Assembly (NCBI RefSeq): GCF_031583065.1
Contig: NZ_CP134053.1
Coordinates: forward strand, 5,022,001 to 5,086,000
Length of the DNA stretch: 64,000 bases
Reading direction: 5' to 3'
Source of the DNA: Streptomyces sp. CGMCC 4.7035
Lineage (GTDB): Bacteria; Actinomycetota; Actinomycetes; Streptomycetales; Streptomycetaceae
The notes under the pieces are model-generated. The model was given only the letters and a program-made list of their open reading frames with translations. It did not search any database and was not told the DNA's origin. Below, piece by piece: positions 7,036 to 56,975 of the stretch; the stretch's first letter is position 1, and each line of letters opens with the position of its first letter. Made by a program: the position numbers and the translations under genes.

Positions 7036-7092
7036 CCTGCGGCTCACCGGGGTCCCTGCGGCTCACCGGGGTCCCTGCGGCTCACCGGGGTC
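7036..7092. repeat. 19-bp tandem repeat, three perfect copies
   Basis: Three identical head-to-tail copies of cctgcggctcaccggggtc occupy the gap between the convergent small membrane gene and the exporter permease. Read on the minus strand, the repeated cccggtgag echoes the end of the permease gene (Leu-Ala-Arg-stop), which lies 10 bp away. Confidence 0.9.
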
Positions 7093-7102
7093 CCCACGCG
7101 CC

Positions 7103-7963
7103 TCACCGGGCGAGCCGCCCCAGCAGCGACGACGCCGACGTGATGGTCAGGGCGGCGGCCACCAGCAGCACCGCGAAGTCGAGCAGCAGGTGGGAGTGCG
7201 TGCCGAGCAGGAGGCCGCGCAGGGCGTCTACCTGGTAGCTCAGCGGGTTGACCTTGCTGACGGCCTGGAGCCAGCCGGGCATGACGGACACCGGGTAGAG
7301 GGCGTTGGAGCCGAAGAACAGCGGCATCGTGATCGCTTGGCCGATACCCATCAGACGGTCGCGGGTCAGGACGATGCCCGCGATCGTCATGGACAGACAG
7401 GAAAAGAAGGCCGAGCCGAGTACGACGATCACCGCCACGCCCAGCAGGCGCAGCGGATTCCAGGTCATCGCCACGCCGAGGAGCGCCGCGATCACGACGA
7501 CGACGATCGCCTGGACCAGCGCCTTCACCCCGGAGGCGAACGCCTTGCCGGTGATGAGCGCTGCCCGCGGGGTCGGCGTCACCAGCAGCTTGGTGAGGAT
7601 GCCCGCGTCCCGCTCCCAGATGATCATGATGCCGTAGAAGATGGCGATGAACATCGCGGACTGGGCGATGATGCCGGGCGCCAGATAGTCGATGTAGGGG
7701 ATGCCGCCGGTGGGTATCGCCCGGATCCGGGTGAACGTCTCACCGAAGATCAGCAGCCACAGCGCAGGCTGGACCGCCCGCGTGTACAGCTCGGTGCGGT
7801 CGTGGCGCAGCTTCTGCAGCTCGACCGTGCACATGGCGACGACCCGTGCGGGCAGTACCTTCCAGGCGGTACGGGCCCGGGGCGGGGCGAGGAGCAGATC
7901 GAGGTCCGCCGGGTGGGGGCGGTCAGCCGACGCGGGACGCGGTGCGGCGGGTGCTTCGGACAT
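7103..7963 (-). CDS. ABC-2 type exporter permease
   Basis: A 286-residue membrane component of a drug-type ABC exporter. Six hydrophobic segments follow an approximately 45-residue cytosolic N-terminus. The ABC-2 hallmark is visible in the last third: LFFGSNALYPVSVMPGWLQAVSKVNPLSYQVDALR. It overlaps the 3' end of the ATPase gene by 41 bp, so the two subunits are co-translated. The substrate is unknown; the MarR gene in the same operon suggests a toxic or drug-like ligand. Confidence 0.9.
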   Translation of the reverse strand: MSEAPAAPRPASADRPHPADLDLLLAPPRARTAWKVLPARVVAMCTVELQKLRHDRTELYTRAVQPALWLLIFGETFTRIRAIPTGGIPYIDYLAPGIIAQSAMFIAIFYGIMIIWERDAGILTKLLVTPTPRAALITGKAFASGVKALVQAIVVVVIAALLGVAMTWNPLRLLGVAVIVVLGSAFFSCLSMTIAGIVLTRDRLMGIGQAITMPLFFGSNALYPVSVMPGWLQAVSKVNPLSYQVDALRGLLLGTHSHLLLDFAVLLVAAALTITSASSLLGRLAR

Positions 7964-8777
7964 CGCGGAAGTCTCCTGCCTGGTCGTCGAGTCCGCTGCC
8001 GGCGACGTCCCGGAAGACGTCCTCCAGCGTGGGCAGCGGGCCTTGGGTGCCGAGCCGTTTCCCGAGGCCGCTCCGCAGCTCGTCGGGGGTGCCGAGGGCG
8101 CGGACGCGGCCGCGGTGCATCAGGGCGACGCGGTCGCAGTACTGGTCGGCCTCGTCCATGTAGTGGGTCGTGACCAGGACGGTCATGCCGGTGGCGGCGC
8201 GCACGGCGTTGATGTGCTCCCACACGTTGGTCCGGGCGATCGGGTCGAGTCCGATGGTCGGCTCGTCGAGGATCAGCAGCCGGGGCGCGCTGACCAGGGC
8301 CTGGGCGAGTTCCAGTCGGCGCACCATGCCGCCGGAGTACGTGTTGGCGAGCCGGTCCGCCGCGGCGGTGAGGTCGACGGCGGCGAGCGCCTGTTCGACG
8401 CGCCGGGCCCGTTCGCGACGGGAAACGTCGAAGACGCGGGCGAACAGGGCCACGTTTTCGCGGCCGGTGAGCCCGGAGTCGGCGGAGAGCTGCTGCGGCA
8501 CATACCCCAACAGCCGTCGTACGGCCATGCGTTCACGGGTCGCGTCATGGCCGAAGACGCGGACCATGCCGGCCGGAACCGGAAGGAGCGTGGTGATGCA
8601 GCGGATCGCGGTGGTCTTGCCCGCTCCGTTGGGGCCGAGCAGCCCGAGCACCTCGCCGTCGTGGACGGAGAGATCGAGCCCGTCGACCGCTTTCGTCTCC
8701 CCGAAGGAGTAGGCGAGTCCGGCGCAGGTGACGGCATCGACTGCCGGGGCCTCGCCGTCCGTCGCGTGACGCGTCAT
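7923..8777 (-). CDS. ABC exporter ATP-binding protein (DrrA type)
   Basis: A 284-residue ATPase driving the adjacent permease. Walker A GPNGAGKTT is at 48-56, the signature SGGMVRRLELA starts at about 148, and Walker B LLILDEP ends near 173, followed by an H-loop TTHYMDEAD. The C-terminal extension (TLEDVFRDVAGSG) is typical of daunorubicin-resistance-type ATPases. Its ATG overlaps the MarR stop by 4 bp (atga). Confidence 0.93.
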   Translation of the reverse strand: MTRHATDGEAPAVDAVTCAGLAYSFGETKAVDGLDLSVHDGEVLGLLGPNGAGKTTAIRCITTLLPVPAGMVRVFGHDATRERMAVRRLLGYVPQQLSADSGLTGRENVALFARVFDVSRRERARRVEQALAAVDLTAAADRLANTYSGGMVRRLELAQALVSAPRLLILDEPTIGLDPIARTNVWEHINAVRAATGMTVLVTTHYMDEADQYCDRVALMHRGRVRALGTPDELRSGLGKRLGTQGPLPTLEDVFRDVAGSGLDDQAGDFRDVRSTRRTASRVG

Positions 8778-9229: not shown

Positions 9230-9284
9230 ACTTCCGAGATTAGCTCTGTATCAGAGGTATCGAGGAAAAGAGATGGTCAAGAGA

Positions 9285-9349
9285 GGTGGTCAGTGGAGGA
9301 GAGGGAGGTGGTCGGTGGAAGAGAGGGAGTTGGTCGGTGGAGATGGTCG
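9285..9349. repeat. 22-bp purine-rich tandem repeat, about three copies
   Basis: Copies of ggtggtc(a/g)gtgga(g/a)gagaggga start at 9285, 9307 and 9329. The array lies 29 bp downstream of the minus-strand CDF transporter gene. The minus-strand form (ccac(t/c)gaccacc) resembles the transporter's own end, ccaccactgac. Confidence 0.8.
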
Positions 9350-9377
9350 AGGAGGAGCAGGAGCATGCGCTCCGCCG

Positions 9378-10388
9378 TCAGTGGTGGTGCGGCTCCTCCC
9401 GGTGCACCGGGCCGTGCGGGGCCTCGCAGTGGCCGGGGTCGTCCGTCGCGTTCCGGTCGCCGGGCAGGGCCACCTGGAGGACCTGTTCCGCGGCGTGGTC
9501 GACCTGGAGGGTGGTGTGGGTGATGCCGTAGTCGCGGCGCAGGACGTCCTCCAGGGCACGGCGGACGGAGTGGCAGTCGCCGCCGGGCTCGACCAGGACG
9601 TGCGCGGACAGCGCGGCCTGGCCCGAGGTGATCTGCCAGACGTGCAGGTCGTGCACCTCGACGACGTCCGGCTGGGCGACGAGCCGGTCGCCCAGCGCGT
9701 CCGGGTCGACGTCGGCGGGCGCGGCCTCCAGGAAAATGCGGCCGGAGTCGCGCAGCAGCCCGTACGCGGCCTTCACCATCAGTGCGACGACGACCAGCGT
9801 GGCGATGGGGTCGGCGCGCTCGAAGCCCGTGAGGACGACGAGGAGCGCGGCGACAGCGGTGCCTATGAAGGCGAACAGGTCGTTCAGGACGTGCTGGTAG
9901 GCGCCCTCGACGTTGAGGGAGGTGCGGTTGGCCTTCGAGATGCACCAGGTGGCGACCACGTTCACGGCGATGCCGGCGAGCGCGGTGACCAGCATCGGCC
10001 CGCCCGCGACCGGCGGCGGGTCGATGAGCCGTCGTACCGCCTCGTAAGCCAGCCACGCACTCAACAGGAGCAGCGTGAGGCCGTTGGCCTGGGCTGAGAG
10101 GATCTCCGCGCGCTTGAGCCCGTAGGTGAAGCCGCCCCGGGCCGGGCGGGCGGCGAGCCGCATCGCGATGAGGGCGAGCACGATGGACGCGGCGTCGGTG
10201 AGCATGTGGGCCGCGTCGGAGATCAGGGCGAGGGAACCGGCGACGATGCCGACGACCACTTCGACCGTCATGAACGCCGCGATGAGGGCGAGCGCGACGC
10301 TCAGCCAGCGACGGTCGGCGTCCGCCGACACGCCGTGGGAGTGCCCGGCATGACCGCCCGGGCCGTGCTCGTGATCATGGTCGCTCAT
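9378..10388 (-). CDS. Cation diffusion facilitator (zinc-type exporter)
   Basis: A 336-residue CDF transporter that exports Zn(II) or similar divalent cations in exchange for protons. The N-terminus is His/Asp-rich (MSDHDHEHGPGGHAGHSHG). Six membrane segments follow. The TM2 site motif is SDAAHMLTD (D58, H61, D65) and the TM5 motif is HVLND. The C-terminal cytoplasmic domain (VVEVHDLHVW) and a His-rich tail ending EEPHHH complete it. The ATG at 10386-10388 fits the family; upstream codons are not conserved-looking. It appears monocistronic. Confidence 0.93.
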   Translation of the reverse strand: MSDHDHEHGPGGHAGHSHGVSADADRRWLSVALALIAAFMTVEVVVGIVAGSLALISDAAHMLTDAASIVLALIAMRLAARPARGGFTYGLKRAEILSAQANGLTLLLLSAWLAYEAVRRLIDPPPVAGGPMLVTALAGIAVNVVATWCISKANRTSLNVEGAYQHVLNDLFAFIGTAVAALLVVLTGFERADPIATLVVVALMVKAAYGLLRDSGRIFLEAAPADVDPDALGDRLVAQPDVVEVHDLHVWQITSGQAALSAHVLVEPGGDCHSVRRALEDVLRRDYGITHTTLQVDHAAEQVLQVALPGDRNATDDPGHCEAPHGPVHREEPHHH

Positions 10389-12602: not shown

Positions 12603-13001
12603 CTACCGCGAGTGCGCCGGGCGGCCCGTGAGCCGGTGGTCGGCGAGGCTGAGCGCCTCCCCCACGACCCGGCGCAGATGGCCGTCGCGCAGTGAGTAGA
12701 TCACGCGGCGACCGTCCTTGCGCGTGTCGACCAGGCCCGCCAACCGGAGCCGCGCCAGGTGCTGGCTGACGGCGGGACGGGCCGCGCCGCACGCCTGCGT
12801 GAGTGTCGAGACGTCGGCCTCGCCCTGGGTCAGGGCATGCAGGAGGGCGAGGCGGGTGCGGTCACCGAGCAGGGCGAGCAGCTCGGCGGCGAGCGCGAAC
12901 TGCTCCTCGCCGGGGGTGCGGGGGTGACCGTCGGCCGCGCCGCCTGTGCGCTGCTGCGCAACCTGTGCAGGTGATAGGTGCATGCGTGCGCTCATACGCA
13001 C
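12603..13001 (-). CDS. ArsR/SmtB-family metalloregulator
   Basis: A 132-residue winged-helix repressor with the core LLGDRTRLALLHALTQGEADVSTLTQACGAARPAVSQHLARLRLAGLVDTRKDGRRVIYSLRDGHLRRVV. The final DGHLRRVVGEALSLADHR carries the alpha-5 His/Asp pattern of zinc sensors. The GTG at 12999-13001 has ggag 7 nt upstream; ATGs at 12995 and 12983 are alternatives. An inverted repeat TGCGT-N8-ACGCA (12983-13000) covers the start. It is divergent from a His-rich CDF exporter and probably controls it in response to zinc. Confidence 0.88.
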   Translation of the reverse strand: MRMSARMHLSPAQVAQQRTGGAADGHPRTPGEEQFALAAELLALLGDRTRLALLHALTQGEADVSTLTQACGAARPAVSQHLARLRLAGLVDTRKDGRRVIYSLRDGHLRRVVGEALSLADHRLTGRPAHSR

Positions 13002-13058
13002 ATAATGGCTCCGTGGGTGCGACCGCGTCCACTCCCGCGCGGCGGAAGGGGGCCTTCA

Positions 13059-14264
13059 GTGGGGCACAAGCACGAAGCGCGCGAGCAGGGCCGGGTACAT
13101 GGGTACGGGCACAGGTCCGGGCATGGGCACGACCGCGATCATGACCACGGCCACGGTCACCCCCATGATCATGACCACGAGCACGGGCACGGGCACGCCC
13201 ACGGACACGAGCACGGGCATGGGCACGCCCACAGACACGAGCACGGGCGTGGACACGGGCATCCTCACCCCCACGGACCCCTCTCCCGCCTCCGCCACCT
13301 CCTCACCCCCCACTCCCACGAGACCGCCGACAAGCTCGACTCCGCGCTGGAGTCCTCCGCGCGCGGCATGCGGGCGCTGTGGGTCTCGCTGGCCGTGCTC
13401 GGAGCGACGGCGCTGGCGCAGGCGGTCGTGGTCGTGATCTCCGGGTCGGTCGCGCTGCTCGGCGACACCGTGCACAACGCCGCCGACGCCCTGACCGCCG
13501 TGCCGCTCGGTATCGCCTTCGTCCTGGGGCGACGCGCGGCCACACGCCGCTTCACCTATGGATACGGCCGCGCCGAGGACCTCGCCGGAATCGCGATCGT
13601 GCTGACCATCGCCGCGTCCGCCGCCTTCGCCGCCTGGGCGGCGGTCGAACGGCTGCTGCACCCGCGGCCCGTGGAGCACATCCCCGTCGTCGCCGTCGCG
13701 GCCGTCATCGGTTTCGCGGGCAACGAGTGGGTCGCCCGCCACCGCATGCGGGTGGGCCGGGCGATCGGCTCGGCCGCGCTCGTCGCCGACGGCCTGCACG
13801 CGCGTACCGACGGGTTCACCTCGCTCGCGGTGCTCGTCGGCGCGGGCGGTGCGGCGCTCGGATGGCACCTCGCCGACCCGATCGTGGGGCTGGCGATCAC
13901 GGCCGCGATCGTCCTGGTGCTGCGGGACGCGGCGCGCGAGGTGTTCCGGCGGGTGCTGGACGCCGTCGACCCGGCGCTGGTGGACCAGGCCGAGCAGGCG
14001 CTCCAGAAGGTGCCGGGTGTGCGTGGGGTCGGTGAACTGCGGCTGCGCTGGATCGGTCACCGGTTGCGCGCCGAGGTGGCCGTCGTCGTGGACGGCGAGG
14101 TGAGCGTGCGCCGGGCACACGACATCGCGGTCGAGGCCGAACACGCCCTGCTGCACGCGGTGCCACGGCTCACCGCGGCGCTGGTCCATGCCGACCCGAC
14201 TCCGGTGCCGGGCGAGACGGATCCACATCTGGCTCTGGCCCACCACGCCCACGGCGGGGCCTGA
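13059..14264 (+). CDS. CDF cation exporter with a very His-rich N-terminus
   Basis: A 401-residue CDF transporter. The first 73 or so residues contain about 28 histidines in alternating HGHGH/HDHDH runs, a likely metal-collecting tail. The membrane domain follows, with the site motifs GDTVHNAADAL and ADGLHARTDGF, and a C-terminal domain. The GTG at 13059, 7 nt after ggaaggggg, is preferred; an ATG at 13005 is in frame but lacks a ribosome binding site. The DNA of the tail is a near-repetitive cacgggcacgccc tract. It forms a divergent pair with the ArsR regulator. Confidence 0.9.
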   Translation: MGHKHEAREQGRVHGYGHRSGHGHDRDHDHGHGHPHDHDHEHGHGHAHGHEHGHGHAHRHEHGRGHGHPHPHGPLSRLRHLLTPHSHETADKLDSALESSARGMRALWVSLAVLGATALAQAVVVVISGSVALLGDTVHNAADALTAVPLGIAFVLGRRAATRRFTYGYGRAEDLAGIAIVLTIAASAAFAAWAAVERLLHPRPVEHIPVVAVAAVIGFAGNEWVARHRMRVGRAIGSAALVADGLHARTDGFTSLAVLVGAGGAALGWHLADPIVGLAITAAIVLVLRDAAREVFRRVLDAVDPALVDQAEQALQKVPGVRGVGELRLRWIGHRLRAEVAVVVDGEVSVRRAHDIAVEAEHALLHAVPRLTAALVHADPTPVPGETDPHLALAHHAHGGA

Positions 14265-16203: not shown

Positions 16204-17001
16204 TCAGGAGTCGGCGTCCAGCTCCGCGAGCCGGGCGGCAGCCTCCTCGTCCAGCTCCGCGAGCCGGGCGGCCGCCTCCTCGTCCAGCTCCGACAGCGCC
16301 AATAGCTGCTCGGGCGTGACCCCGTCGGGGATCGGCACCGGGGCCGGCGTTCTGAGCGGCGGCTGCCATCCGGCGTCGGGCGTCCAGCGCCGTACGACGC
16401 GGGCGGGCGCCCCGGCCACCACCGCGTGGTCCGGCACGGTGCCCCGTACCACCGCCCCGGCCGCCACCACCACGTTCCGCCCGACGCGCGCGCCCGGCAG
16501 GATCACCGCGCCCGTCCCGATCCAGCAGCCGGGGCCGATCTCCACCGGCTCCATCCGCGGCCACTGCTTGCCGATGGGTTGATGGGGATCGTCGTACGAA
16601 TGGTTGGTGGACGTCACATAGACGTACGGCCCGAAGTAGCAGTCGCTGCCGATCGTGACCGTCGTGTCGGCGATGACATGACTGCCGCGGCCCAGGACGA
16701 CGCCGTCGCCGATGCACAGGATCGGGTCGGGGCCGAGATCGAGGTCGGGCATCAGCCCGGCGGTGAGGGTGACCCGTTCGCCGATGATGCAGTGCGAGCC
16801 GACATGGATCCACGGTTCACCGAAGACCGTGCCCAGCGGGAACGCGAGTCTGGTACCTGTTCCCATCGCGCCGAAGCGGAAGCGTCCGGGGTGCTCCGCC
16901 GTCACGGACCCCATGCGCTGCGCCCAGGCCCAGCCCGCGTGAACGGCGCGCTGCGCGAGGGCGCGACGCCATGATGAGAACGTGTTCCTGCTCCTGAGCA
17001 C
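16204..17001 (-). CDS. Hexapeptide-repeat acyltransferase
   Basis: A 265-residue left-handed beta-helix acyltransferase. Hexapeptide repeats run from GTRLAFPLGTVFGEPWIHVG through VEIGPGCWIGTGAVILPGARVGRNVVVAAGAVV, with the NHSYDDP segment that often carries the catalytic histidine. The substrate is unknown. The start is uncertain: a GTG at 16999-17001 gives MLRSRNTFSSWRRALAQR; an internal ATG at 16863-16865 gives MGTGTRLAF. The C-terminus carries two near-identical 33-bp repeats (16216-16281) encoding LDEEAAARLAE twice, a likely short helical tail made by recent duplication. Confidence 0.82.
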   Translation of the reverse strand: MLRSRNTFSSWRRALAQRAVHAGWAWAQRMGSVTAEHPGRFRFGAMGTGTRLAFPLGTVFGEPWIHVGSHCIIGERVTLTAGLMPDLDLGPDPILCIGDGVVLGRGSHVIADTTVTIGSDCYFGPYVYVTSTNHSYDDPHQPIGKQWPRMEPVEIGPGCWIGTGAVILPGARVGRNVVVAAGAVVRGTVPDHAVVAGAPARVVRRWTPDAGWQPPLRTPAPVPIPDGVTPEQLLALSELDEEAAARLAELDEEAAARLAELDADS

Positions 17002-17107: not shown

Positions 17108-17635
17108 ATGACGCACAAGGCGCTGATCGCGGGCATCGGCGGCAAGGATCCCCAGGTGGACCAGGAGGCGTTCGCGGCACCCACGTCCGTGGTGATCGGG
17201 GACGTGACGCTGCGTGCGGGGGCGAGCGTCTGGTACGGCGCGGTGCTGCGGGCCGACTGCGGGCCGATCGTCGTCGGTGCGCACAGCAATGTGCAGGACA
17301 ACTGCACCCTCCATGTCGACCCCGGTTTCCCGATCTCCATCGGCGAGCGCGTCTCGATCGGGCACAACGCCGTGGTCCACGGCGCGACCGTCGAGGACGA
17401 CTGCCTGATCGGCATGGGCGCCACGGTACTCAACGGCGCGGTGATCGGCGCGGGGTCGCTGGTGGCCGCACAGGCGCTGGTGCCGCAGGGCATGCGGGTG
17501 CCCCCGGGCTCACTCGTCGCCGGCGTACCCGCGAAGGTCAAGCGGGAGCTCACCGCCGAGGAGCGCGAGGGCATATCGCTGAACGGCACGATGTACGCGG
17601 AGCTGGCGAAGGCGCATCGCGAGGTGCATGGATGA
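17108..17635 (+). CDS. Gamma-class carbonic anhydrase-like protein
   Basis: A 175-residue left-handed beta-helix protein of the gamma carbonic anhydrase/YrdA family. Conserved residues are visible: RADCGPIVVGAHSNVQDNCTLHV, GHNAVVHGATV (the His ligands) and GMGATVLNGAVIG. Family members bind zinc or iron; many lack measurable anhydrase activity. aaggagac precedes the ATG at 17108. It is divergent from the other beta-helix acyltransferase. Confidence 0.9.
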   Translation: MTHKALIAGIGGKDPQVDQEAFAAPTSVVIGDVTLRAGASVWYGAVLRADCGPIVVGAHSNVQDNCTLHVDPGFPISIGERVSIGHNAVVHGATVEDDCLIGMGATVLNGAVIGAGSLVAAQALVPQGMRVPPGSLVAGVPAKVKRELTAEEREGISLNGTMYAELAKAHREVHG

Positions 17636-17662
17636 GGTGCACATGAATGAGGTGCATGAATA
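17621..17662. repeat. Short repeat at the 3' end of the carbonic anhydrase-like gene
   Basis: gaggtgca occurs at 17621, 17634 and 17649, with near-identical spacers (tg(g)at / catgaat). The first copy is the last coding segment (Glu-Val-His-Gly-stop) and the others follow the stop codon. Confidence 0.7.
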
Positions 17663-20307: not shown

Positions 20308-20796
20308 GTCTCTATTGTGCCGGGGCCGGACGGGGGGACCGTACGGCGCGTTCCGCCGGCGTTGGGCCGGGGCGAGGCGTGCGGCGCGTTCCGCCGGGTC
20401 CGGGCCGGGGCCGGACAGTGGCACCGTTGGACCGTTGGCATGCATGGCCGGTCCCGTGCCCGCCAGGACAACCGGGCCGGACAGCGGGGGCAGTCGGCCG
20501 TGCGCCCGGCAGAACAATCGGACCAAACAGGGTGGGCAGCCCGCCGTGCGCCCGGCAGAACAACCGGACCGCACGGCGCACCCCACCGCTCCCACGCCGG
20601 AGCACAAGAACCGGCTCGTGAACGACCGGCCCCGTGCCCGACAAGACCAGCGGACCGGACGGCGTACTCCACGGGGCCCATGGTCCGAGCCGGATGGCAT
20701 ACCCGGCCGGTCCGGCACCGGGCCGGGCAAGCGGCGGCCCGACGCGATGCCCATGACTCTCGTGTGCTCAAGTCCCGCGCACGCCACTGACGTCGC
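20308..20796. repeat. Intergenic region with degenerate ~45-bp repeats
   Basis: The gap between the spermidine synthase-like gene and tuf3 holds no convincing gene. From about 20456 to 20680 there are four related blocks beginning gtgc(c/g)c, each followed by (g/c)c(a/g)agacaa or ggcagaacaa and then (t/c)cggacc. They start near 20456, 20500, 20546 and 20634. A pair of gcgcgttccgccgg copies lies at about 20346 and 20386. The antisense open frames here are products of composition. Confidence 0.7.
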
Positions 20797-22522: not shown

Positions 22523-23305
22523 ATGCTCGATGCCACCACCCGCTCTGGGGGCACCGCCACGGCCTCTCCCCGGGCCGCGGCCACAAAGCTCACCGCCGCG
22601 TCGGCCACTGCCGCCGTCGACGTACCGCTGGGGTTCACCGCTCGCTGTACCAGAGCGCTGCTCTCGCCCTGGTCGCGGCTGTCCCTGCTCGTGGTCCTGC
22701 TCGCCGCGGCCGCGTCCTGCGTGCTGCTGTTCGAGCCGCAGAGGCTGCTGGCGCACGGCTGGCCGCCGCAGTTCGGGGGTGCCGCCGCGGCCGGGGTCTT
22801 CGCGGTGGCGTACGGGCTGTGCACAGTCGCGTTCGTGCCGCGACCTCTTCTGAACCTCGCGGCGGGTGCCCTGTTCGGCTCGCAGCTGGGCACTGGGGCG
22901 GCTCTGGCAGGCACGGTGCTCGGGGCCGGGATGGCCTTCGGGCTCGGCCGGGTGCTCGGGCAGGACGCCCTGCGCCCGCTGCTGCGCGGACGCTGGTTGA
23001 AGGCCGCGGACGGTCAGCTCAGCCGGCACGGCTTCCGCTCGATGATGGCGGCCCGACTGTTCCCCGGGGTGCCGTTCTGGGTGGCCAACTACTGCGCGGC
23101 CGTCTCCCGGATGCGCTGGGCGCCGTTCCTGCTCGCGACGGCGCTCGGCTCGATACCGAACACCGCCGCGTACGTCGTCGCCGGCGCCCGCGCCTCGAAG
23201 CCGACCTCGCCCGCCTTCCTGATCGCGATGGGCTTCATCGCGGTGCCGGCACTGGTCGGCGCGGTGGTGGCCTGGCGCAAGCGCCACCACCTGCGCGGCC
23301 GCTGA
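22523..23305 (+). CDS. TVP38/TMEM64-family membrane protein
   Basis: A 260-residue DedA-superfamily protein. The SNARE-associated/VTT domain is marked by FVPRPLLNLAAGALFGSQLGTGAALAGTVLGAGMAFGLGR and by MAARLFPGVPFWVANYCAAVSRMRW. An approximately 45-residue Ala/Thr-rich N-terminus precedes the first membrane helix. Members are implicated in membrane lipid or undecaprenyl-phosphate traffic. The ATG at 22523 lacks a clear ribosome binding site, so the message may be leaderless or the start may differ slightly. Confidence 0.85.
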   Translation: MLDATTRSGGTATASPRAAATKLTAASATAAVDVPLGFTARCTRALLSPWSRLSLLVVLLAAAASCVLLFEPQRLLAHGWPPQFGGAAAAGVFAVAYGLCTVAFVPRPLLNLAAGALFGSQLGTGAALAGTVLGAGMAFGLGRVLGQDALRPLLRGRWLKAADGQLSRHGFRSMMAARLFPGVPFWVANYCAAVSRMRWAPFLLATALGSIPNTAAYVVAGARASKPTSPAFLIAMGFIAVPALVGAVVAWRKRHHLRGR

Positions 23306-23327
23306 GCCGCCCGACCGAGGGGCAGCC

Positions 23328-23358
23328 GGGCGGACGACGGGAGGGCGGACGACGGGAG
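23328..23358. repeat. 15-bp direct duplication between convergent genes
   Basis: ggcggacgacgggag occurs twice head to tail in the 67-bp gap between the TVP38-type gene and the thiolase, 22 bp after the former's stop codon. Confidence 0.8.
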
Positions 23359-23372
23359 TTTGACGACAGGGC

Positions 23373-24675: not shown

Positions 24676-25146
24676 ATGGCCGCCTCCAAAGACCCGCGCC
24701 CCTGCTCGATCGCCGACACCCTGGCTCTCGTCGGCGAGAAGTACTCCCTGCTCGTCCTGCGCGAGGTCTGCCTCGGCAACCGACGCTTCGACCAGCTCGT
24801 CCGCAACATCGGCGCCCCGCGAGACGTGCTGGCCACACGTCTGAAGCGGCTGGTGGACGCGGGAATCCTGACGAAGAAGATCTACACCGAGCGCCCGCAG
24901 CGCTTCGAGTACAGGCCCACGGCGGCGGGCCTGGAGCTGGAGTCGGTCCTGATGACCCTCATGGCATGGGGCGACCGCCATCTCAGGCAGGACGACGATC
25001 GCCCCATGGTGATCGAACACATCTGCGGCAACGAACTCGTCCCGGTCGTCACCTGCTCCGCCTGCGGCGAGGAGGTCCACCACGAGGACTTGACGCCGCA
25101 CCCTCAGGCGCAGGGCTGGACGGTGTCGGGGCCTACGGCCGCCTAG
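24676..25146 (+). CDS. HxlR-family transcriptional regulator
   Basis: A 156-residue winged-helix regulator. The HxlR core is CSIADTLALVGEKYSLLVLREVCLGNRRFDQLVRNIGAPRDVLATRLKRLVDAGIL. The conserved early cysteine (C11) is the usual redox- or electrophile-sensing residue. The tail has CSACGEEV, a CxxC pair. The -10 box ends 5 bp before the ATG, so translation is probably leaderless. It most likely regulates the divergent thiolase and itself. Confidence 0.9.
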   Translation: MAASKDPRPCSIADTLALVGEKYSLLVLREVCLGNRRFDQLVRNIGAPRDVLATRLKRLVDAGILTKKIYTERPQRFEYRPTAAGLELESVLMTLMAWGDRHLRQDDDRPMVIEHICGNELVPVVTCSACGEEVHHEDLTPHPQAQGWTVSGPTAA

Positions 25147-25228
25147 GGACGCCTACGGACGCCTAGGGACCCTAGAGACGAATACGGACGGCTGACGCCC
25201 AGAGACGAATACGGACGGCTATGGACGG
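25147..25228. repeat. Nested short repeats filling a convergent gap
   Basis: The whole 82-bp gap between the HxlR and cupin stop codons is repetitive. cgcctagggac and cgcctacggac alternate from the HxlR stop; agagacgaatacggacggct occurs at 25174 and 25201; cggacggct / tggacggct runs to the cupin stop. The blocks nearest each gene include that gene's own TAG codon. Confidence 0.85.
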
Positions 25229-25951
25229 CTACGGCGTCCCCTTGTAGACGTCCAGCCGCCCGCACATGCCGAACTTGCCATGCGCGGACGGCTGCTGCGC
25301 CCGTACGACCGCGTCGGCGAGGTGGGAGACATCGCCGCGCTCCAGGCGGTCGAACTGTTCCCCGGTGGCGGACGCGGCGGCCTCGGCACCCCGCCGCCAC
25401 CGTTCGCGCCACTCGGCCAGTCGCGGCCGTACGAGCGCGGCGGCCGCCCGGTGGAAGGCGGCGAGCGGCTCGGGGCCGTCCGCGTCGCGCAGCGCCCGGT
25501 AGCCCTCCAGGGCAAGATCGCGCCGAGCCCGGGCAATCCGCTCCTGCTCCTCCTCGGGCACGTCGGCCGGGATGACGGTCGCGGCGGCGTAGGTCTCCGG
25601 ATCGGTCAGGTACTGCGGAGGCAGGGTGAGGACGGCGTCGCCCGCCTCCGGGAGCCCGCTGTTCTGCATGAGGACGGTGATGCGCAGGTCGTCCTCGTTG
25701 ACCAGCCGGTGGATGGTGCCGGGCGTGAACCAGGCGACCGTGCCGGGCGCGAGGGGCGTGACCTCGCACCCGGACGTCGTCAGCGTCTGCACCGCGCCGC
25801 GCCCGCCGGTGACGACGTACGCCTCCGAACAGGTCAGATGCAGATGGGGAGTTCCGCCGCATACGCCGTCGGCTGCGGGCCAGTCGTAGACGGACAGGTG
25901 CGAGACGGCCACGGCGCCCGGCAGCCCGGTGAACTCCCCGGGGCTCACCAC
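25229..25951 (-). CDS. Cupin-domain protein of a sugar-type operon
   Basis: A 240-residue protein with an N-terminal cupin barrel. The segments GGTPHLHLTCSEAYVVTGGRGAVQTL, WFTPGTIHRLVN and NEDDLRITVLMQNSGLPEAGDAVLT mark the barrel; the histidines in PHLH and the E in SEAY are likely metal ligands. The C-terminal half is helical and charged. It is the last gene of a three-gene operon and overlaps the PmoA-like gene by 7 bp. GTG starts at 25951 and 25948 are both possible. A role in carbohydrate metabolism is inferred from context. Confidence 0.75.
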   Translation of the reverse strand: MVSPGEFTGLPGAVAVSHLSVYDWPAADGVCGGTPHLHLTCSEAYVVTGGRGAVQTLTTSGCEVTPLAPGTVAWFTPGTIHRLVNEDDLRITVLMQNSGLPEAGDAVLTLPPQYLTDPETYAAATVIPADVPEEEQERIARARRDLALEGYRALRDADGPEPLAAFHRAAAALVRPRLAEWRERWRRGAEAAASATGEQFDRLERGDVSHLADAVVRAQQPSAHGKFGMCGRLDVYKGTP

Positions 25952-41847: not shown

Positions 41848-41948
41848 CGCGGCACCGGGTCGGTGACCGGCCGGGAAGACCGCGGACCGAAGCCCGCAAC
41901 CCAAGGGCGCGCGGCAGCGTCAGCGCTGCCGGGCGCCTGTTGTGTCGG

Positions 41949-42150
41949 GCGGCTGCCGGTACGGCCGCCTGCTGTGGAGGCGGCTGCCGGTACGGCCGCC
42001 TGTTTTATTGCGCGGCCACCGGTACGGCCGTCTGTGTGTTACGAGGTTGCCGGCACGGCCACCTGTCTTACGCGGTTGCCGGCACGGCCACCTGTCTTAC
42101 GCGGTTGCCGGCACGGCCACCTGTCTTACGCGGTTGCCGGTACGGCCACC
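41949..42150. repeat. 29-32-bp tandem repeat derived from a gene's 3' end, seven copies
   Basis: Copies start at 41949, 41980, 42012, 42043, 42072, 42101 and 42130 (periods 31, 32, 31, 29, 29, 29). The 29-bp form reads gcggttgccggcacggccac followed by ctgtcttac. The copies at 42072 and 42101 are identical. The copy at 42130 is the coding end of the adjacent minus-strand small gene. Each 29-bp copy repeats the codons for Val-Ala-Val-Pro-Ala-Thr-Ala-stop. Copies further from the gene are more diverged. Confidence 0.88.
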
Positions 42151-42263
42151 GTCCGCAGCGTGCGCGCGGACACGGACCACACGTGCCATACGAGGCGCAG
42201 GATGATCGCCTCGGCGAGCGCGATGCCCATCTTCGTCGCGACGGCTACAAGAATCTCGCCCAT
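42126..42263 (-). CDS. Small hydrophobic protein, 45 aa
   Basis: A 45-residue protein: MGEILVAVATKMGIALAEAI, then a second amphipathic/hydrophobic half ending in VAVPATA. It has the look of a single membrane-associated helix. The ATG at 42261-42263 has no strong ribosome binding site; longer in-frame extensions reach 42500 but look like random Arg-rich sequence. The tandem repeat array starts at its stop codon. No family is recognised, and expression is unproven. Confidence 0.5.
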   Translation of the reverse strand: MGEILVAVATKMGIALAEAIILRLVWHVWSVSARTLRTVAVPATA

Positions 42264-44347: not shown

Positions 44348-47167
44348 ATGAGGGTATTTTTCTGGCGATATCGGGGCCCGGGGCGTCATCCACCCACCGG
44401 TCGCTCACGTGATCGTCGGGCTTCCCTGCTGAACCCGCGCAGTACGGCCGGGCAGGTGTTCCTCCTCCAGATCGTGATCGTGGTGCTCCTGGTTGTCGCC
44501 GCGGTGGCGGCCCTGCTGCTTCAGGCGGCGCGCGACGCAGTGGAGGAAGGGCGTCGCGAGTCGGTCGTCGCGGCCCAGTCCTTCGCGAATGCCCCTGGCG
44601 TGGCGCAGGCGCTGCGCAGCCGCGACCCGACCGCAGTGCTGCAACCGAAGGCCGAAGCGGCACGGAAGAAGGCGGGCGTGGATTTCATCGTCGCCATGAA
44701 CACCCAGGGAATTCGTTATACGTATCCCTACCCGCAGGAGATCGGGAAGAAGTTCGTCGGCACCATCGGACCGGCGCTGGAGGGCCGTACCGTCATCGAG
44801 CAGGCCGGCGGTCCGCCGCTTCCCGCGGGCAAGGGAACGGCCGTGCAGGCGGTGGTCCCGGTGACCGACTCGCGCGGCACGGTCGTCGGCCTGGTGTCCG
44901 CCGGGATCACGGTCAAGAACGTGGCGCGCATGTGGATGCCACAGCTGCCGATCATCCTCGGTACCGGCGCGGTCGCGCTCGCGCTGGCCACGGCCGGGAC
45001 GACGCTGGTGTACCGGCGGCTGCGGCGGCAGACGCGCGGTCTGGCCCCGGTGGAGCTGACGCGGATGTACGAGCACCACGACGCGGTCCTGCACTCGGTG
45101 CGGGAAGGGGTGCTGATCACGGACGCCGACGGACGACTGCTGCTGGCCAACGACGAGGCACAGCGACTGCTGGGCCTGCCGGCGGACGCGCAGGGGCGCC
45201 CTGTGCGGGAGCTGGCGCTGCCGGAGCAGATCAAGGATGTGCTCATATCGCGGGAGACGGTGACCGATGAGGTGCATCTCGCGGAGGACCGGTTGCTGGC
45301 GGTGAACAAGCGGCCCACGTTCCCGGACGCAGACGCGGACGCGGACGAGGGCCGGGGAGGCAGCGTGGTGACGTTGCGGGACACCACGGAGCTGGCGGCG
45401 GTGTCGGGGCGGGCCGAGGTGGCACGGAAGCGGCTGACGCTGCTGTACGAGGCCGGGGTGCGGATCGGGACGACGCTGGATGTGTGGCGTACGGCCCAGG
45501 AACTGGCCGAAGTGGCGGTGCCGCGGTTCGCCGACCTCGTCACGGTGGATCTGCTGGACGCGGTACTGCGCGGGTGGGAGCCGACAGCGGAGGGATGGCG
45601 GCGTCTGCGCCGTGCGGCGATCAGCGGCAAGCAGCAGATGATGCCGGTGTATCCGCTCGGCGAAGTGATCACGTTCTCGCCGGGAACCCCGCAGATGCGG
45701 ACGCTGCGGCAGGGGCGCAGCGTGCTGGAGGCAGACCTGCGGCAGGCCCGCGGTTGGCAGCAGCAGGATCCGGATCGCGCCCGAAAAGCCCTGGAGCGCG
45801 GGTTGCGTTCGCTGGTGACCGTGCCGCTTCAGGCGCGGGGTGTGCCACTGGGCGTGGCGAACTTCTACCGGATCGTGGATTCCCCGGCGTACGAGCCGGA
45901 GGATCGGTCCTTCGCCGAGGAACTGGCCGCGCGGGCGGCGGTGGCGATCGACAACGCCCGGAGGTTCACGCGGGAGCACGCCATGGCGGTCACCCTGCAG
46001 CGCAGTCTGCTGCCGCGGGGGCAGCCGGATCAGGACGCGCTGGAGGTGGCCTGGCGGTATCTGCCTGCGGAGGCGGGCGTGGGCGGGGACTGGTTCGACG
46101 TCATCCCGCTGCCGGGCGCCCGAGTGGCGCTGGTGATGGGCGACGTCGTCGGTCACGGGGTGCACGCGGCGGCGACGATGGGGCGCCTGCGCACCGCGGT
46201 GCACAACTTCGCCACGCTGGACCTGCCCGTGGACGAGGTGCTCGGAAACCTGGACGACCTGGTCGTCCGCATGGACAACGAGGAGGGCACCGAGGAGGCC
46301 GCGGATGACCACGAAGGAGAGGGGGTGACGGGGGCGACCTGTCTGTACGCCATCTACGACCCGATCGCCGGAGTGTGCACGATGGCCCGTGCGGGACATC
46401 CCGACCCGGTGGTGGTGGCTCCCGACGGGACCGTCACCTGTCCCGAGGTGCCGGCCTCGGCCCCGCTCGGACTGGGCGGCTACCCCTTCGAGACCGCCGA
46501 GCTGCACCTGCCGGAGGGTTCACGGCTCGTGCTGTACACCAACGGCCTGGTGGAGGACCGCGCCCGTGACCTGGACATCGGCCTTGAGGGCCTGCGCCGG
46601 GCGTTGGACGGGGTCGGGGGACACACTCCTGAGGAGACGTGTCAGGCGGTGATCGACGCGTTGAAGCCGGCGCACCCCTCGGACGACATCGCGCTGCTGG
46701 TGGCGCGAACCCGGCTGGTCCCGCCCTCGTGCGTGGCCGAGTGGGACGTGCCGCCGGACCCGGCGGTGGTGCCCTCGGTACGGGCGAAGTGCAAGGAGAA
46801 GCTGCGGGAGTGGGGGCTGGAGGAGATCGGCTTCACCTCGGAACTGATCCTCAGCGAGCTGGTCACGAACGCCATCCGGTACGGATCGCCACCCGTCAAC
46901 GTGCGGCTGCTGTACGGGCGCTGTCTGATCTGCGAGGTGTCGGACGGCAGCAGCACCTCGCCTCGGCTGCAGCGGGCGGCAACCATGGACGAAGGCGGGC
47001 GGGGGCTGTTCCTCGTGGCGCAGTTCGCCCAGCGATGGGGAACGCGGTACACCTCTCGCGGCAAGGTCATCTGGGCGGAACAGACTCTTCACGACGGCGC
47101 GTCCGCCGCCGTGGGCTCCGCACCGGTCGACGCTCTCCTCGATCAGTACGACGATTCCGTGCTGTGA
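44348..47167 (+). CDS. Multidomain SpoIIE-type serine phosphatase with sensor and kinase-like ends
   Basis: A 939-residue signalling protein. Residues 38-62 form a membrane helix, about 65-195 an extracytoplasmic sensor (CitA/DcuS-like, with YTYPYPQEIGKKFVG), and 199-222 a second helix. A PAS domain (about 235-350) and a GAF domain (about 365-530) follow. The PP2C/SpoIIE phosphatase has GGDWFDVI and MGDVVGHGVHAAATMGRLRTAV. The C-terminus is a HATPase/RsbW-like anti-sigma kinase domain (ELILSELVTNAIRYG, EGGRGLFLVAQ). Such proteins control anti-anti-sigma factors. The ATG at 44348 has gaagg 5 nt upstream. Confidence 0.9.
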   Translation: MRVFFWRYRGPGRHPPTGRSRDRRASLLNPRSTAGQVFLLQIVIVVLLVVAAVAALLLQAARDAVEEGRRESVVAAQSFANAPGVAQALRSRDPTAVLQPKAEAARKKAGVDFIVAMNTQGIRYTYPYPQEIGKKFVGTIGPALEGRTVIEQAGGPPLPAGKGTAVQAVVPVTDSRGTVVGLVSAGITVKNVARMWMPQLPIILGTGAVALALATAGTTLVYRRLRRQTRGLAPVELTRMYEHHDAVLHSVREGVLITDADGRLLLANDEAQRLLGLPADAQGRPVRELALPEQIKDVLISRETVTDEVHLAEDRLLAVNKRPTFPDADADADEGRGGSVVTLRDTTELAAVSGRAEVARKRLTLLYEAGVRIGTTLDVWRTAQELAEVAVPRFADLVTVDLLDAVLRGWEPTAEGWRRLRRAAISGKQQMMPVYPLGEVITFSPGTPQMRTLRQGRSVLEADLRQARGWQQQDPDRARKALERGLRSLVTVPLQARGVPLGVANFYRIVDSPAYEPEDRSFAEELAARAAVAIDNARRFTREHAMAVTLQRSLLPRGQPDQDALEVAWRYLPAEAGVGGDWFDVIPLPGARVALVMGDVVGHGVHAAATMGRLRTAVHNFATLDLPVDEVLGNLDDLVVRMDNEEGTEEAADDHEGEGVTGATCLYAIYDPIAGVCTMARAGHPDPVVVAPDGTVTCPEVPASAPLGLGGYPFETAELHLPEGSRLVLYTNGLVEDRARDLDIGLEGLRRALDGVGGHTPEETCQAVIDALKPAHPSDDIALLVARTRLVPPSCVAEWDVPPDPAVVPSVRAKCKEKLREWGLEEIGFTSELILSELVTNAIRYGSPPVNVRLLYGRCLICEVSDGSSTSPRLQRAATMDEGGRGLFLVAQFAQRWGTRYTSRGKVIWAEQTLHDGASAAVGSAPVDALLDQYDDSVL

Positions 47168-47233
47168 GCCCGGTCCGCCCTGCGAGCCGGTCCGCCCTGC
47201 GAGCCCCGTCCACCCCGCGAGGCCGATCCACCC
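47162..47233. repeat. 17-18-bp tandem repeat starting at the phosphatase stop codon
   Basis: Four degenerate copies of ctg(t/c)gagcc(c)(g/c)gtccgcc run from the stop codon. The first includes the TGA (ctgtgagcc); in later copies TGA becomes CGA (ctgcgagcc, ccgcgaggcc). Confidence 0.8.
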
Positions 47234-47323
47234 TTTGTAACAGAGGGCTCGCTCCGGCCCGGCGGACCCGAAATCCCCTGCACACCCCTTGGCTGTGCAT
47301 CTTCCGTCCCCAACACTGAGCCG

Positions 47324-53325: not shown

Positions 53326-53560
53326 GTCTTCCAGGAGGACGATGGGCCACCTGGCGGGAGCACCTGCAAGCGATGGGCCACCCGGCGGGAGCACCTGCAA
53401 GCGTTGCGCCTCCAAGCAGGAGGGGCCGCCCGCGGGAGCGCCTGCGGGCATTGAACCCTTCGAGGAGGACGAGGGCCGCCCGGCGGGAGCACCTGCGGAC
53501 GTTGCGCCTCCAAGGAGGAGGGGTCGCCCCCGCCCGCGGGAGCGCCTGCGGGCGTTGAAC
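53304..53560. repeat. Degenerate 29-57-bp tandem repeat extending from the lipoprotein's 3' end
   Basis: Six copies of a core cgggagc(a/g)cct(g/a)c(a/g)(a/g)gcgttg occur. The first, at 53304, is coding (Gly-Ser-Thr-Tyr-Gly-Arg-stop); the others fall near 53356, 53385, 53432, 53480 and 53537. Spacers alternate between (ga)acccttcgaggaggac and cgcctccaag(c/g)aggagg types. No gene is apparent in 53326-53621. Confidence 0.8.
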
Positions 53561-54215: not shown

Positions 54216-54364
54216 CCGTCCCCCACGACGCTAACCGCCGCCACCGACAATCGCGCTCAGGCGGCTCCGTAGGGACGCTGGGCCATGACGGTGACGACGC
54301 GCGGCCACCGGTGACCGGCGCGGGCAGGGTAGGACCGCGGTGGGCCCCGCCCCCGCCCCGGGCC

Positions 54365-55048: not shown

Positions 55049-55139
55049 GTCAAGTTCCTCCGATGTGCGGTCACTTCCAGGTCTCAGAACCTACAGGCGA
55101 CCACTGACAACCTGCCCCCGAACCCCGTGCGGGCCGGGG

Positions 55140-56726
55140 CTACCAGCTGGTCTTGCGGGACAGCTCCCACATCATCATGATCGTCGACGGGTCGAGCGCC
55201 CGCTCCCCGCCGGAAATGTCCTCGTTGACCGCGAGGAACTGCTTGCCCTGCCACAGCGGCAGCAACCGGGCGTCGTCGACGAGGATCTTCTGGGCCTGCT
55301 CGAACTCCCTGACCACGTTGGCGCGGTCGCTCTCGCGCCGGGACTGGGGCAGCAGCACCCCGGTGATCTCCGGCTGCGGATAGGGCGTACCCAGGGCGTT
55401 CTGGTCGCCCACGAAGGGCGCGATGTAGTTGTCGGGGTCCGGGAAGTCGGGGAACCACCCACGGCCGAACACCGGGTACTCGCCCTTCCGGTAGCCCTCC
55501 ACGTACGTCTTCCAGGGACGGCCCTTGAGGGTGACCTGGAAGAGACCGGACCCGTCGAGCTGACGCTTGAGCTCGCGGAACTCCGGCGCGGTCTCGGAGC
55601 CGTAGCGGTCGGTGGTGTACCAGAGGGTCAGCGGGACGCGCCCGGTGATGCCCGCCTCGGAGAGGATCTTGCGCGCCTTGGAGGTGCTGGGCTCGCCGAA
55701 GGCGTCGAAGAAGGAGGTGGTGTGCCCGGTCAGCCCCGCCGGGACCATGGAGTAGAGCGGTTCGACGGTGTCCTTGTAGACATTGTGGGCGACCGCCGCC
55801 CGGTCCACGACCTGGGCCACTGCCCTGCGCACGGCGGCCTTGCCGGCCCACGGGTCCTTCGGGTTGAAGACCAGGTAGGAGATCTCGATGCCCGAGTTCT
55901 CCACCAGGTGGATGCCGTCGTCGGACTCGCGGCTCTGGAGGGAGACGATGTCGGAGGCGGCGAGACCGCGGTACGTGACGTCGATCTTCCGGTCCTTGAG
56001 GGCGTTCACCATGCCGGCGGAGTCCTGGAAGTAACGGATGGTGACCTCGTCGTTCTTCCGGTCCGCGTAGCCCTTGTAGCGGCTGTTCCCGACGAGTCGG
56101 GCCTCCTTGCCCTCTTGGTAGGACTGCAGCGCGTACGGTCCGGACCCGGTGATCTTGCCGTCCTTGCGCACCAACGTGGCCGAGTAGTCGGCCGGGTCGA
56201 CGATCGACATGGCCGGCGTGGCGAGGATGAACGGGAAGGTGGCGTCCGCCTCTTTGAGGTGGAAGACGACTTCCCGGTCGCCCTTCACATCGACCCGGTC
56301 GAGAGTGCCCAGAAGGCCCGCCGGGCCGCCGGACACGTTGATCCGCCTGATCCGGTCGATCGAGTACTTAACGGACCGGGCGTCGAGCTTGTCCCCGTTG
56401 GAGAACGTGAGGCCGTTGTGCAGGACGCACCGGTACGCCAGGTTCGTCCGGTCGGTGAACCCGCAGCTCTCGGCGGCGTCGGGCGCCGGCTCGGTCGCGC
56501 CGTCGGGGTAGTTCAGCAGGGTCTGGTAGACGTTGCGGAACAGCTCCCAGGAACTGTCCCAGGAGGCGGCGGGGTCCAGCGTGGTCGGCGAACTGGTGGT
56601 GCCCACGACGATCGGCCCCTGCTTGTCGGAGGACCCCGAGGAAAGCACACCGCAACCGGCCACCAGGGATATGGACGTGATCGCCGCCAGCCGACGCAGC
56701 AAACGGTTCCGGTTGAACACGCGCAC
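55140..56726 (-). CDS. Peptide/oligopeptide-type ABC substrate-binding lipoprotein
   Basis: A 528-residue SBP_bac_5 protein that captures peptides or a similar solute outside the membrane. The signal peptide (MRVFNRNRLLRRLAAITSIS) ends in the lipobox LVAGC. The family block is TTLDPAASWDSSWELFRNVYQTLLNYPDG near the mature N-terminus. No permease or ATPase gene is adjacent, so the cognate transporter is elsewhere. GTG start; the 5' region includes ATGAC-N6-GTCAT near 56824. Confidence 0.88.
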   Translation of the reverse strand: MRVFNRNRLLRRLAAITSISLVAGCGVLSSGSSDKQGPIVVGTTSSPTTLDPAASWDSSWELFRNVYQTLLNYPDGATEPAPDAAESCGFTDRTNLAYRCVLHNGLTFSNGDKLDARSVKYSIDRIRRINVSGGPAGLLGTLDRVDVKGDREVVFHLKEADATFPFILATPAMSIVDPADYSATLVRKDGKITGSGPYALQSYQEGKEARLVGNSRYKGYADRKNDEVTIRYFQDSAGMVNALKDRKIDVTYRGLAASDIVSLQSRESDDGIHLVENSGIEISYLVFNPKDPWAGKAAVRRAVAQVVDRAAVAHNVYKDTVEPLYSMVPAGLTGHTTSFFDAFGEPSTSKARKILSEAGITGRVPLTLWYTTDRYGSETAPEFRELKRQLDGSGLFQVTLKGRPWKTYVEGYRKGEYPVFGRGWFPDFPDPDNYIAPFVGDQNALGTPYPQPEITGVLLPQSRRESDRANVVREFEQAQKILVDDARLLPLWQGKQFLAVNEDISGGERALDPSTIMMMWELSRKTSW

Positions 56727-56856
56727 ACTCCTCGATCTGCCGTACCAGGGGTCGGCGGCAGACCCTACCGCAGCGTCCGCCCGAGAGGACCTGGTTCGCG
56801 GAGGGCTCTTGATCAGCGCGTATATGACGACGTTGTCATCGGTCTGAGTGTCGCTT

Positions 56857-56975
56857 GTACGTCGACACGGGCGCCATTTGTGTCCACGACATGGGCGGCA
56901 TTCGTGTCCACGACACCGGCACCCTTTGCATCACGACACGGGCGCCGTCTCTGTCCACCGGCGCCCGTGTCGGGG
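56857..56975. repeat. 24-26-bp degenerate tandem repeat downstream of an SDR gene
   Basis: Five related blocks of (t)gt(cc)acgacacgggcgcc plus a t/c-rich tail start near 56861, 56881, 56904, 56929 and 56951. The array ends 8 bp past the stop of the minus-strand SDR gene. Confidence 0.8.

Follow-up and report, generated by a model that had tools for sequence, protein, structure and literature searches.

Mycobacterial MIRU elements are repeats that lie between genes and can overlap stop codons, and they belong to one sequence family. For Streptomyces coelicolor, PMC6749651 gives 38 satellites, or 4.2 per Mb, under a different definition from the one used here. In archaeal Borgs, which are extrachromosomal elements, the tandem repeats described in PMC9879509 are independent and fast-evolving, consist of perfect, A-rich units, and have unit lengths divisible by 3 in ORFs and not in gaps. 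Here we examined tandem arrays in a 64,000-nucleotide stretch of Streptomyces sp. CGMCC 4.7035 (the window), for which an earlier note had listed ten repeat sites at gene ends.

Tandem arrays in the window

Arrays were detected with TRF at the window coordinates given below, and genes were taken from a codon-usage caller made for this analysis, not from curated annotation. A TRF array is present at or beside all ten listed sites, and 8 of the 9 arrays said to be stop-linked have their edge within 35 bp of the nearest called stop, whereas the stop link at 53304 was not confirmed. In a convergent gap, the array at 7035..7110 (19-bp unit ×3.2; TRF also reports 38 bp ×2.0) overruns the stop at 7103 of an ABC-2 permease gene (7103-7963, minus strand), and its edge is at +8 relative to the stop codon of a weak call of 60 aa (6844-7026). 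The array at 17621..17661 (13-bp unit ×3.0, edge at -15) lies over the stop of a gene at 17108-17635 (plus strand), called here a hexapeptide-repeat gene and labelled ‘carbonic anhydrase-like’ by the earlier reader. The array at 25131..25234 (10/20-bp units, edge at -6 from the cupin stop) covers the stops of HxlR (25146) and of the cupin gene (25229), and the stop of a SpoIIE-domain (phosphatase) gene (44456-47167, plus strand) is covered by that at 47162..47234 (18/35-bp unit, edge at -6). At 41930..42150, a 29-bp unit array is accompanied by diverged 29/63-bp copies (edge at -25 from the stop), and its first 29-bp unit holds the last seven codons and stop of a 45-aa ORF (42126-42263, minus strand; weak call, score 11). 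This ORF may not be a real gene, as a search of 40 other genomes turned up no relative.

Other arrays lie wholly behind genes. These are found at 9283..9342 (22-bp unit ×2.7), +35 bp behind a cation-efflux (CDF) gene (9378-10388, minus strand), at 23328..23358 (15-bp unit ×2.1, edge at +14) in the VTT/thiolase convergent gap flanked by 22691-23305 (plus strand) and 23373-24545 (minus strand), and at 56863..56958 (24/47-bp unit), 24 bp behind an SDR gene (56983-57744, minus strand). As the earlier note had described, the acyltransferase repeat is internal, with a frame-keeping 33-bp unit ×2.4 at 16215..16292 (minus strand) within the end of a hexapeptide acyltransferase gene (16204-16914, minus strand). 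The array at 53340..53557 (31/50-bp units) occupies part of a long gap, and the closest called stop (53622) is 64 bp away from it; no gene was called at the presumed lipoprotein locus at 53304, and the two ORFs tried there gave no Pfam match.

Arrays at stops and starts

Counts for the same genome cover 1.66 Mb of it. Gaps of <30 or >600 bp (the limits varied between scripts) and arrays of at least 400 or at least 500 bp were left out of the counts, as were, among the named loci used for comparison, those with at least 200 N. Of the gaps in this genome, 48/174 convergent, 104/552 tandem and 21/200 divergent ones contain an array, and arrays span 58 of 1341 stops versus 17 of 1347 starts (P about 1e-6), not the equal density at gene starts against which the earlier note had staked its claim. 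Such arrays exceed chance: across the first 864 kb, to which the control was limited, 59, 37 and 13 arrays were observed in tandem, convergent and divergent gaps, whereas shuffling the gap sequences five times at the dinucleotide level left 0-2, 0-1 and 0-1, respectively. Behind stops, array coverage out to 200 bp runs 6.7, 9.7, 10.9, 11.7, 12.1, 11.1, 10.8 and 10.7%, followed by 8.9% at 201-300 bp; before starts it is 1.4%, climbing to 6.9%. By distance to the nearest stop, convergent-gap coverage runs.072,.094,.122,.146,.158,.164 and.140. The idea that repeats begin at the stop holds only in part, as coverage has no peak there and the arrays are not sharply anchored. In convergent gaps, 47% of 77 arrays have an edge ≤10 bp from a stop versus 25–27% expected under silent uniform placement (P<.001). 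This excess of edges, 1.5-1.8x between -30 and +10, is offset by a deficit beyond 80 bp, which may reflect constraint on unannotated sequence there. Where every start is ≥150 bp away, coverage in this genome is.140 in tandem versus.047 in divergent gaps (CI of the difference.038-.143), and because this threefold difference is found far from starts, distance from starts alone is insufficient. Along the chromosome, arrays occupy 27-38% of tandem and convergent gaps in Mb bins 0, 1, 7 and 8, 14-16% in bins 2-4, 22% in bin 5 and 15% in bin 6; chromosome ends are usually under less constraint.

The depth to which arrays enter genes was followed in 95 array–stop pairs pooled over seven Streptomyces samples. 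In 84 of these the array intrudes ≤1.05 units into the gene, where 32% would be expected under a blind null that disregards that any reading frame halts at its first stop, and 8 of the remaining 11 overshoot one unit by <0.5 unit. Under a stricter null, in which frames were run into 300 non-spanning arrays, 1559 of 1800 frames meet no stop and 115 of 241 stops fall in the first unit (48%; P 7e-17). One unit downstream lies a copy of the gene end, stop included; its median identity is 0.87 over the 70 cases open to testing, of which 50 reach ≥0.8, whereas control sites have a median of 0.36 and none reaches 0.8, which bears out the earlier observation that the repeats re-use the gene's own last bases. 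Stop-spanning arrays are indifferent to frame (unit length mod 3: 35/24/36) and start-spanning arrays are distributed 19/2/1; for exact duplications the distribution is 57/6/4 in coding DNA and 51/41/33 in noncoding DNA, so that repeats within genes mostly keep frame (57/67). As the first unit retains the true stop, later copies are therefore silent.

We consider it probable that tandem duplications arise widely and persist where they are harmless. Short tandem duplications (unit mostly about 10–60 bp) would be born across the whole chromosome, and the arrays would afterwards grow and decay where they formed. Most of them would be purged by selection, leaving chiefly frame-keeping ones within genes; near starts they would upset ribosome-binding sites and promoters, and behind a gene they would do no harm. 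A duplication whose first unit still holds the real stop would be harmless too, whatever its downstream sequence or frame, because translation halts at the first stop. The zone in which arrays do no harm would thus reach into the gene by roughly the length of one unit, and with gaps as short as they are, a good number of the surviving arrays would touch the stop and repeat the gene's last bases. From these patterns we infer a roughly even rate of birth along the chromosome, with selection rather than local mutation shaping most of what is seen; the harmless-survival reading accounts for most of the pattern and leaves over a modest 3′ bias.

Species differences and competing origins

In other Streptomyces (G005, G007, G009, G013, G015 and the named loci, pooled), arrays are found in 43/492 tandem, 29/228 divergent and 29/129 convergent gaps, with a convergent excess at P.024 versus divergent and 7e-5 versus tandem gaps. 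Of a set of 80 loci, 71 were used, the nine omitted being six non-actinobacterial and three actinobacterial MAGs. The convergent excess and the spanning of stops are common to other Streptomyces, but the tandem excess is not, and convergent gaps of G007, G009 and Nocardia hold almost no arrays. Divergent gaps carry about equal densities across seven genomes (0.40-0.59 arrays per kb) and convergent gaps 0 to 2.9, so that most of the variation between species falls in gaps in which two transcripts terminate. Ku copy number, considered as a source of these differences, has no relation to array load in the 15 genomes searched; Ku matches are present in all of them (own 1, G012 and G020 2 each, others 1), and low-load G007 has 3, of which 2 are over the cut-off. 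At score 50, 4 of the 19 named species have arrays at the thiolase/VTT convergent junction; at score 40, 9 of 31 sequences do, own included, with mostly different units. The divergent junction where the thiolase gene starts has arrays in 0 of 20. At the convergent junction the arrays differ between species, with one genome compared per species; in L144 the last six thiolase codons and stop are doubled, and in L138, by eye, the stop is gone from the outer copies.

A mutational hot spot at gene 3′ ends, where termination, RNA-polymerase collision or R-loops provoke breaks or slippage, appears doubtful as the main cause. It would agree with the tandem coverage above divergent far from starts, the excess of edges ≤10 bp from stops and the variation between species found mainly in convergent gaps, as well as with the pooled tandem gaps of G005, G013 and G015, where coverage drops from 9.2% at a distance of 30–60 bp from the stop to 1.8% once that distance exceeds 150 bp. 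Against it, tandem-gap coverage in the own genome shows no such fall with distance, coverage lacks a peak at the stop, arrays are not enriched in hairpins, and like duplications occur inside genes, keeping frame. The missing peak, the hairpin result and the in-frame duplications within genes likewise tell against the process anchored at transcript ends that the earlier note had proposed; a weaker form of it may hold, given the modest near-stop excess and the threefold tandem/divergent difference far from starts in this genome.

Among clean two-copy duplications with units ≥14 bp, 18/30 have 0-2 bp of flanking homology (chance mean 0.84), and 12/30 have ≥5 bp, which slippage or the loss of a third copy would produce; homology averages 7 bp if residual third copies are not filtered out, and filtered sets have medians of 1-2. 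Because 18/30 show no more homology than chance readily yields, staggered-break fill-in with end joining, or homology-free slippage, would fit better than short-repeat slippage. We regard as unlikely a low-homology process, in some Streptomyces lineages, with a genuine preference for gene 3′ ends, such as fill-in and end-joining break repair at sites of transcription end. If it existed, convergent junctions would be fast-evolving repeat nurseries that leave promoters untouched, turned up or down from species to species.

Copying of terminator hairpin arms, through stalling at or selection for termination, is very improbable even though, by eye, the window arrays at 7035, 47162 and 56863 are each followed by a short complementary arm. 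With a stem score of ≥10 and hairpins within arrays counted, hairpins occupy 3.8% of array bp in convergent gaps, versus 8.2% of the remaining bp there and 10.5% of bp in convergent gaps free of arrays (tandem: 3.5, 3.3 and 3.5%), and they occur in 33/83 convergent gaps having an array and 106/235 lacking one. This absence of enrichment in convergent and tandem gaps speaks strongly against such an origin. Selection for repeated stop codons as a read-through backup is no more credible: every unit of a stop-spanning array bears a stop copy at birth, but in-frame backup requires units divisible by 3, and the 35/95 that are, about the chance third, are at variance with it. The outer copies in L138 and the many arrays into which frames run without meeting a stop also speak against it. 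A mobile or dispersed MIRU- or REP-like family inserted behind genes is likewise very improbable, for although seven arrays from the sample of this genome group together by similarity and dispersed short palindromes are present behind genes, 228 of the 246 intergenic arrays in 1.66 Mb are without a match among the others and none of the rest lies in the window, which rules out shared units for the window arrays within that sample and upholds the earlier view of a process, not a repeat family.

Relation to known repeats

The units in this genome are mostly unrelated, with 18/246 intergenic arrays resembling another, unlike those of a MIRU or REP family, and the arrays do not look like terminator elements, as stem-loops are not enriched at them in convergent or tandem gaps. 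With the Borg repeats they share independence between loci, fast evolution, a first unit placed wholly or partly within gene ends (84/95 here) and the keeping of frame in ORFs (57/67), whereas the units here are GC-rich and often diverged (TRF matches 68–100%) rather than perfect and A-enriched. The harmless-survival reading yields a simple rule for bacterial minisatellites, by which arrays would persist from one unit inside the gene onward, in any frame and rarely deeper. This rule would turn stop-spanning repeats into a natural gauge of the duplication rate, it suggests a difference in that rate between Streptomyces species, and it warns against ascribing function to repeats that merely mark harmless DNA. 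As in bacterial minisatellites (VNTRs), units of ∼10-60 bp are arranged head-to-tail, denser between genes, often imperfect and unrelated between loci, and head-to-tail units of about 10-100 bp occur here beyond chance. In these respects the arrays are of the bacterial minisatellite kind.

Arrays in the window and across the chromosome

Tandem Repeats Finder detects an array on or next to each of the ten places at which the earlier note had reported short tandem repeats near stop codons. For eight of the nine arrays described as stop-linked, a called stop is no more than 35 bp away, in one case only through a weakly supported 45-aa ORF; for the array at 53304, the nearest called stop is 64 bp away. 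The first unit of the 29-bp array at this ORF contains its last seven codons and stop. Two large arrays in long gaps, at 2366-2584 (38/77-bp units) and 20331-20570 (38- and 46-bp units), are distant from called stops, so the rule of the earlier note does not cover every array. Pfam gives a TrAA12-like match for the weak ORF (60518-60742, +) that contains a perfect (ACGGCA)x20.3 hexamer array (60579-60700). A CDF gene (13368-14264, +) has CACGGGCACGGG repeats upstream of its called start, at 13176-13261; they are probably a His-rich N-terminal portion of a longer ORF (12978-14264), and the called start at 13368 may therefore be wrong.

The window occupies positions 5,022,001-5,086,000 of an 8.09-Mb single-contig genome, and 4/8 convergent, 3/15 tandem and 1/11 divergent gaps of 30-600 bp within it carry arrays. 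The genome was sampled as 80 stretches of 20 kb across the chromosome (1.664 Mb including the window), with genes from a simple codon-usage caller and the repeat finder at score 50. The pattern is real and genome-wide. In the first 864 kb, a dinucleotide-preserving shuffle of the gaps gave 0-2 arrays, compared with 59 observed in tandem gaps, 37 in convergent gaps and 13 in divergent gaps. Over the whole sample, arrays occur in 48/174 convergent and 104/552 tandem gaps, compared with 21/200 divergent gaps (odds ratios 3.2, P 3e-5, and 2.0, P 0.008, respectively). Equal density at gene starts, which the earlier note had held would speak against its proposal, is not observed, as arrays span 58/1341 stops and 17/1347 starts (odds ratio 3.5, P 1e-6). 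This asymmetry is real, since the excess persists from the full sample to well-supported genes (stops 46/915 and starts 9/922; 24/853 and 5/861 in other Streptomyces) and to exact duplications, which span 8/1131 stops and 0/1135 starts here and 5/1035 and 0/1047 in other Streptomyces. Exact duplications per kb amount to 0.68 in convergent, 0.57 in tandem and 0.21 in divergent gaps, and to 0.41, 0.22 and 0.12 elsewhere in Streptomyces. Arrays are commoner near the chromosome ends, at 27-38% of tandem and convergent gaps in Mb bins 0, 1, 7 and 8, compared with 14-16% in bins 2-4, 22% in bin 5 and 15% in bin 6.

Geometry at the stop and origin of the duplications

In seven Streptomyces samples, 84 of 95 stop-spanning arrays enter the gene by at most one unit (5% tolerance), and 8 of the remaining 11 overshoot by less than half a unit. 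The expectation is 32% under blind placement and 48% (115/241) when reading frames are run into other arrays to the first stop. The gene end and stop are recopied one unit downstream with a median identity of 0.87 (at least 0.8 in 50/70 testable cases), compared with 0.36 at control sites, none of which reaches 0.8; in S. griseorubiginosus, the last six codons and stop of the thiolase gene are doubled. The plain reading is that the true stop sits in the first unit, so that later copies are untranslated. The 22 start-spanning cases differ: 13 run deeper than one unit and 19 have units divisible by three. This is what repeats kept in frame close to the beginnings of genes would show. Exact duplications keep frame in 57/67 cases within genes, and those in gaps are distributed 51/41/33 modulo 3. 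Most of the pattern is probably the mark of selection acting on tandem duplications, the harmless zone beginning one unit inside the gene.

Arrays are not sharply anchored at the stop. Coverage is 6.7% over the 15 bp directly behind it, climbs to ∼12% between 60 and 90 bp, holds at ∼11% as far as 200 bp and amounts to 8.9% for 201-300 bp; upstream of starts it rises slowly from 1.4% to 7%. In convergent gaps, coverage is minimal within 5 bp of the stop and flat beyond 20 bp. Against a null of silent duplications placed evenly, 47% of the 77 arrays in such gaps have an edge within 10 bp of a stop (null 25-27%) and 48% span one (null 32-35%), a 1.5-1.8-fold excess of stop-touching arrays that is offset by a deficit beyond 80 bp. 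We regard this residual excess as unexplained and not as proof of anchoring. Copying of terminator arms was suggested by three window arrays that by eye resembled an arm of the following stem-loop. This idea is rejected, as no hairpin enrichment is found across all samples, hairpins making up 3.8% of array bp compared with 8.2% of the other bp in the array-bearing convergent gaps, and 3.5% compared with 3.3% in tandem gaps. Backup stops, which would require units divisible by three, are rejected as well, since the stop-spanning units show no frame preference (35, 24 and 36 modulo 3). Within the sample, membership in a repeat family is ruled out for the arrays of the window.

The birth of duplications was followed in clean two-copy noncoding cases with units of at least 14 bp and no residual similarity past their ends. 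Flanking homology is 0-2 bp in 18/30, and many births thus require little homology. It is at least 5 bp in 12/30, the longest of which are nearly third copies (chance mean 0.84 bp). Staggered breaks followed by fill-in and end joining would yield duplications with little homology, but Ku was found in 15/15 genomes searched, and its copy number shows no correspondence with duplication load.

Other genomes

Between roughly 16 and 29 kb, the window has its gene order in common with named Streptomyces species. At the VTT/thiolase convergent junction (23305-23372), an array is present in 4 of 19 such species, with units of 26, 33, 35 and 60 bp, and at a lower threshold in 9 of 31 sequences, our own included. 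Relatives carry arrays at the other convergent junctions in 0/3 (16202), 0/6 (17635), 1/5 (25146), 3/5 (52754, a long gap) and 1/1 (47803, 1.6 kb) cases, and at the divergent junctions in 1/3, 0/4, 1/9, 0/20 (thiolase start), 1/7 and 1/5.

Array-bearing convergent, tandem and divergent gaps number, respectively, 5/18, 4/70 and 3/28 in the Streptomyces genome G005, 8/24, 10/71 and 3/24 in G013, 5/15, 8/70 and 4/36 in G015, 1/20, 5/56 and 3/26 in G007, and 0/9, 3/73 and 2/20 in G009. Named Streptomyces loci, which include draft assemblies where arrays may be lost, give 10/43, 13/152 and 14/94. Pooled over Streptomyces other than our own (29/129, 43/492 and 29/228), convergent gaps are richer than divergent (P.024) and tandem (P 7e-5) gaps, and there is no excess of tandem over divergent gaps. 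The same counts are 2/21, 8/57 and 2/25 in G020 (another family), 0/34, 3/89 and 1/44 in Nocardia, 1/7, 0/34 and 0/28 in Mycobacteriaceae, 3/18, 3/68 and 3/42 in Pseudonocardiaceae, and 3/25, 8/102 and 0/44 in other actinobacteria.

Counted per 100 kb of noncoding sequence, exact duplications reach 28.8 in our genome, 20.8 in G015, 18.3 in G013, 16.4 in named Streptomyces, 14.8 in Mycobacteriaceae (2 cases), 12.1 in other actinobacteria, 9.8 in G020, 6.9 in G007, 6.0 in G009, 3.5 in Pseudonocardiaceae, 3.2 in G005 and 2.1 in Nocardia. The load differs among species, on small counts, and G005 is high by one of the two measures (array-bearing gaps and exact-duplication density) and low by the other. 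These differences are worth pursuing, as is the tandem-over-divergent excess far from starts in our genome, where arrays cover 14.0% of tandem compared with 4.7% of divergent gaps.

A separate observation concerns short dispersed sequences. The palindrome GGGGCGGAGCCCC occurs in 24 copies in our 1.66 Mb, 23 of them intergenic (tandem 15, convergent 8, divergent 0), and CAAACGCCGGAGGGGCTGA (up to 2 mismatches) in 10, of which 8 are intergenic (4 convergent, 4 tandem); examples lie at L030:4695-4760 and L039:403-499 of the sampled stretches. Both look like dispersed, species-patchy REP-like elements behind genes. GGGGCGCGGGGAACTGCGCGA (up to 2 mismatches) has 9 copies in 397 kb of 21 named Streptomyces loci (L133-L151, L158, L183), of which 7 lie in tandem gaps and 2 in convergent ones, and only 2 copies in 1.66 Mb of our genome.

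Comparison with known repeats

Among the matches listed in a literature search confined to open-licence papers, none deals with stop-spanning duplications in Streptomyces. For S. coelicolor, passages of a prokaryote satellite survey give 38 satellites, or 4.2 per Mb (PMC6749651). The stop-spanning geometry as such is not new, because it is described in passages on the tandem repeats of archaeal Borg elements (PMC9879509).
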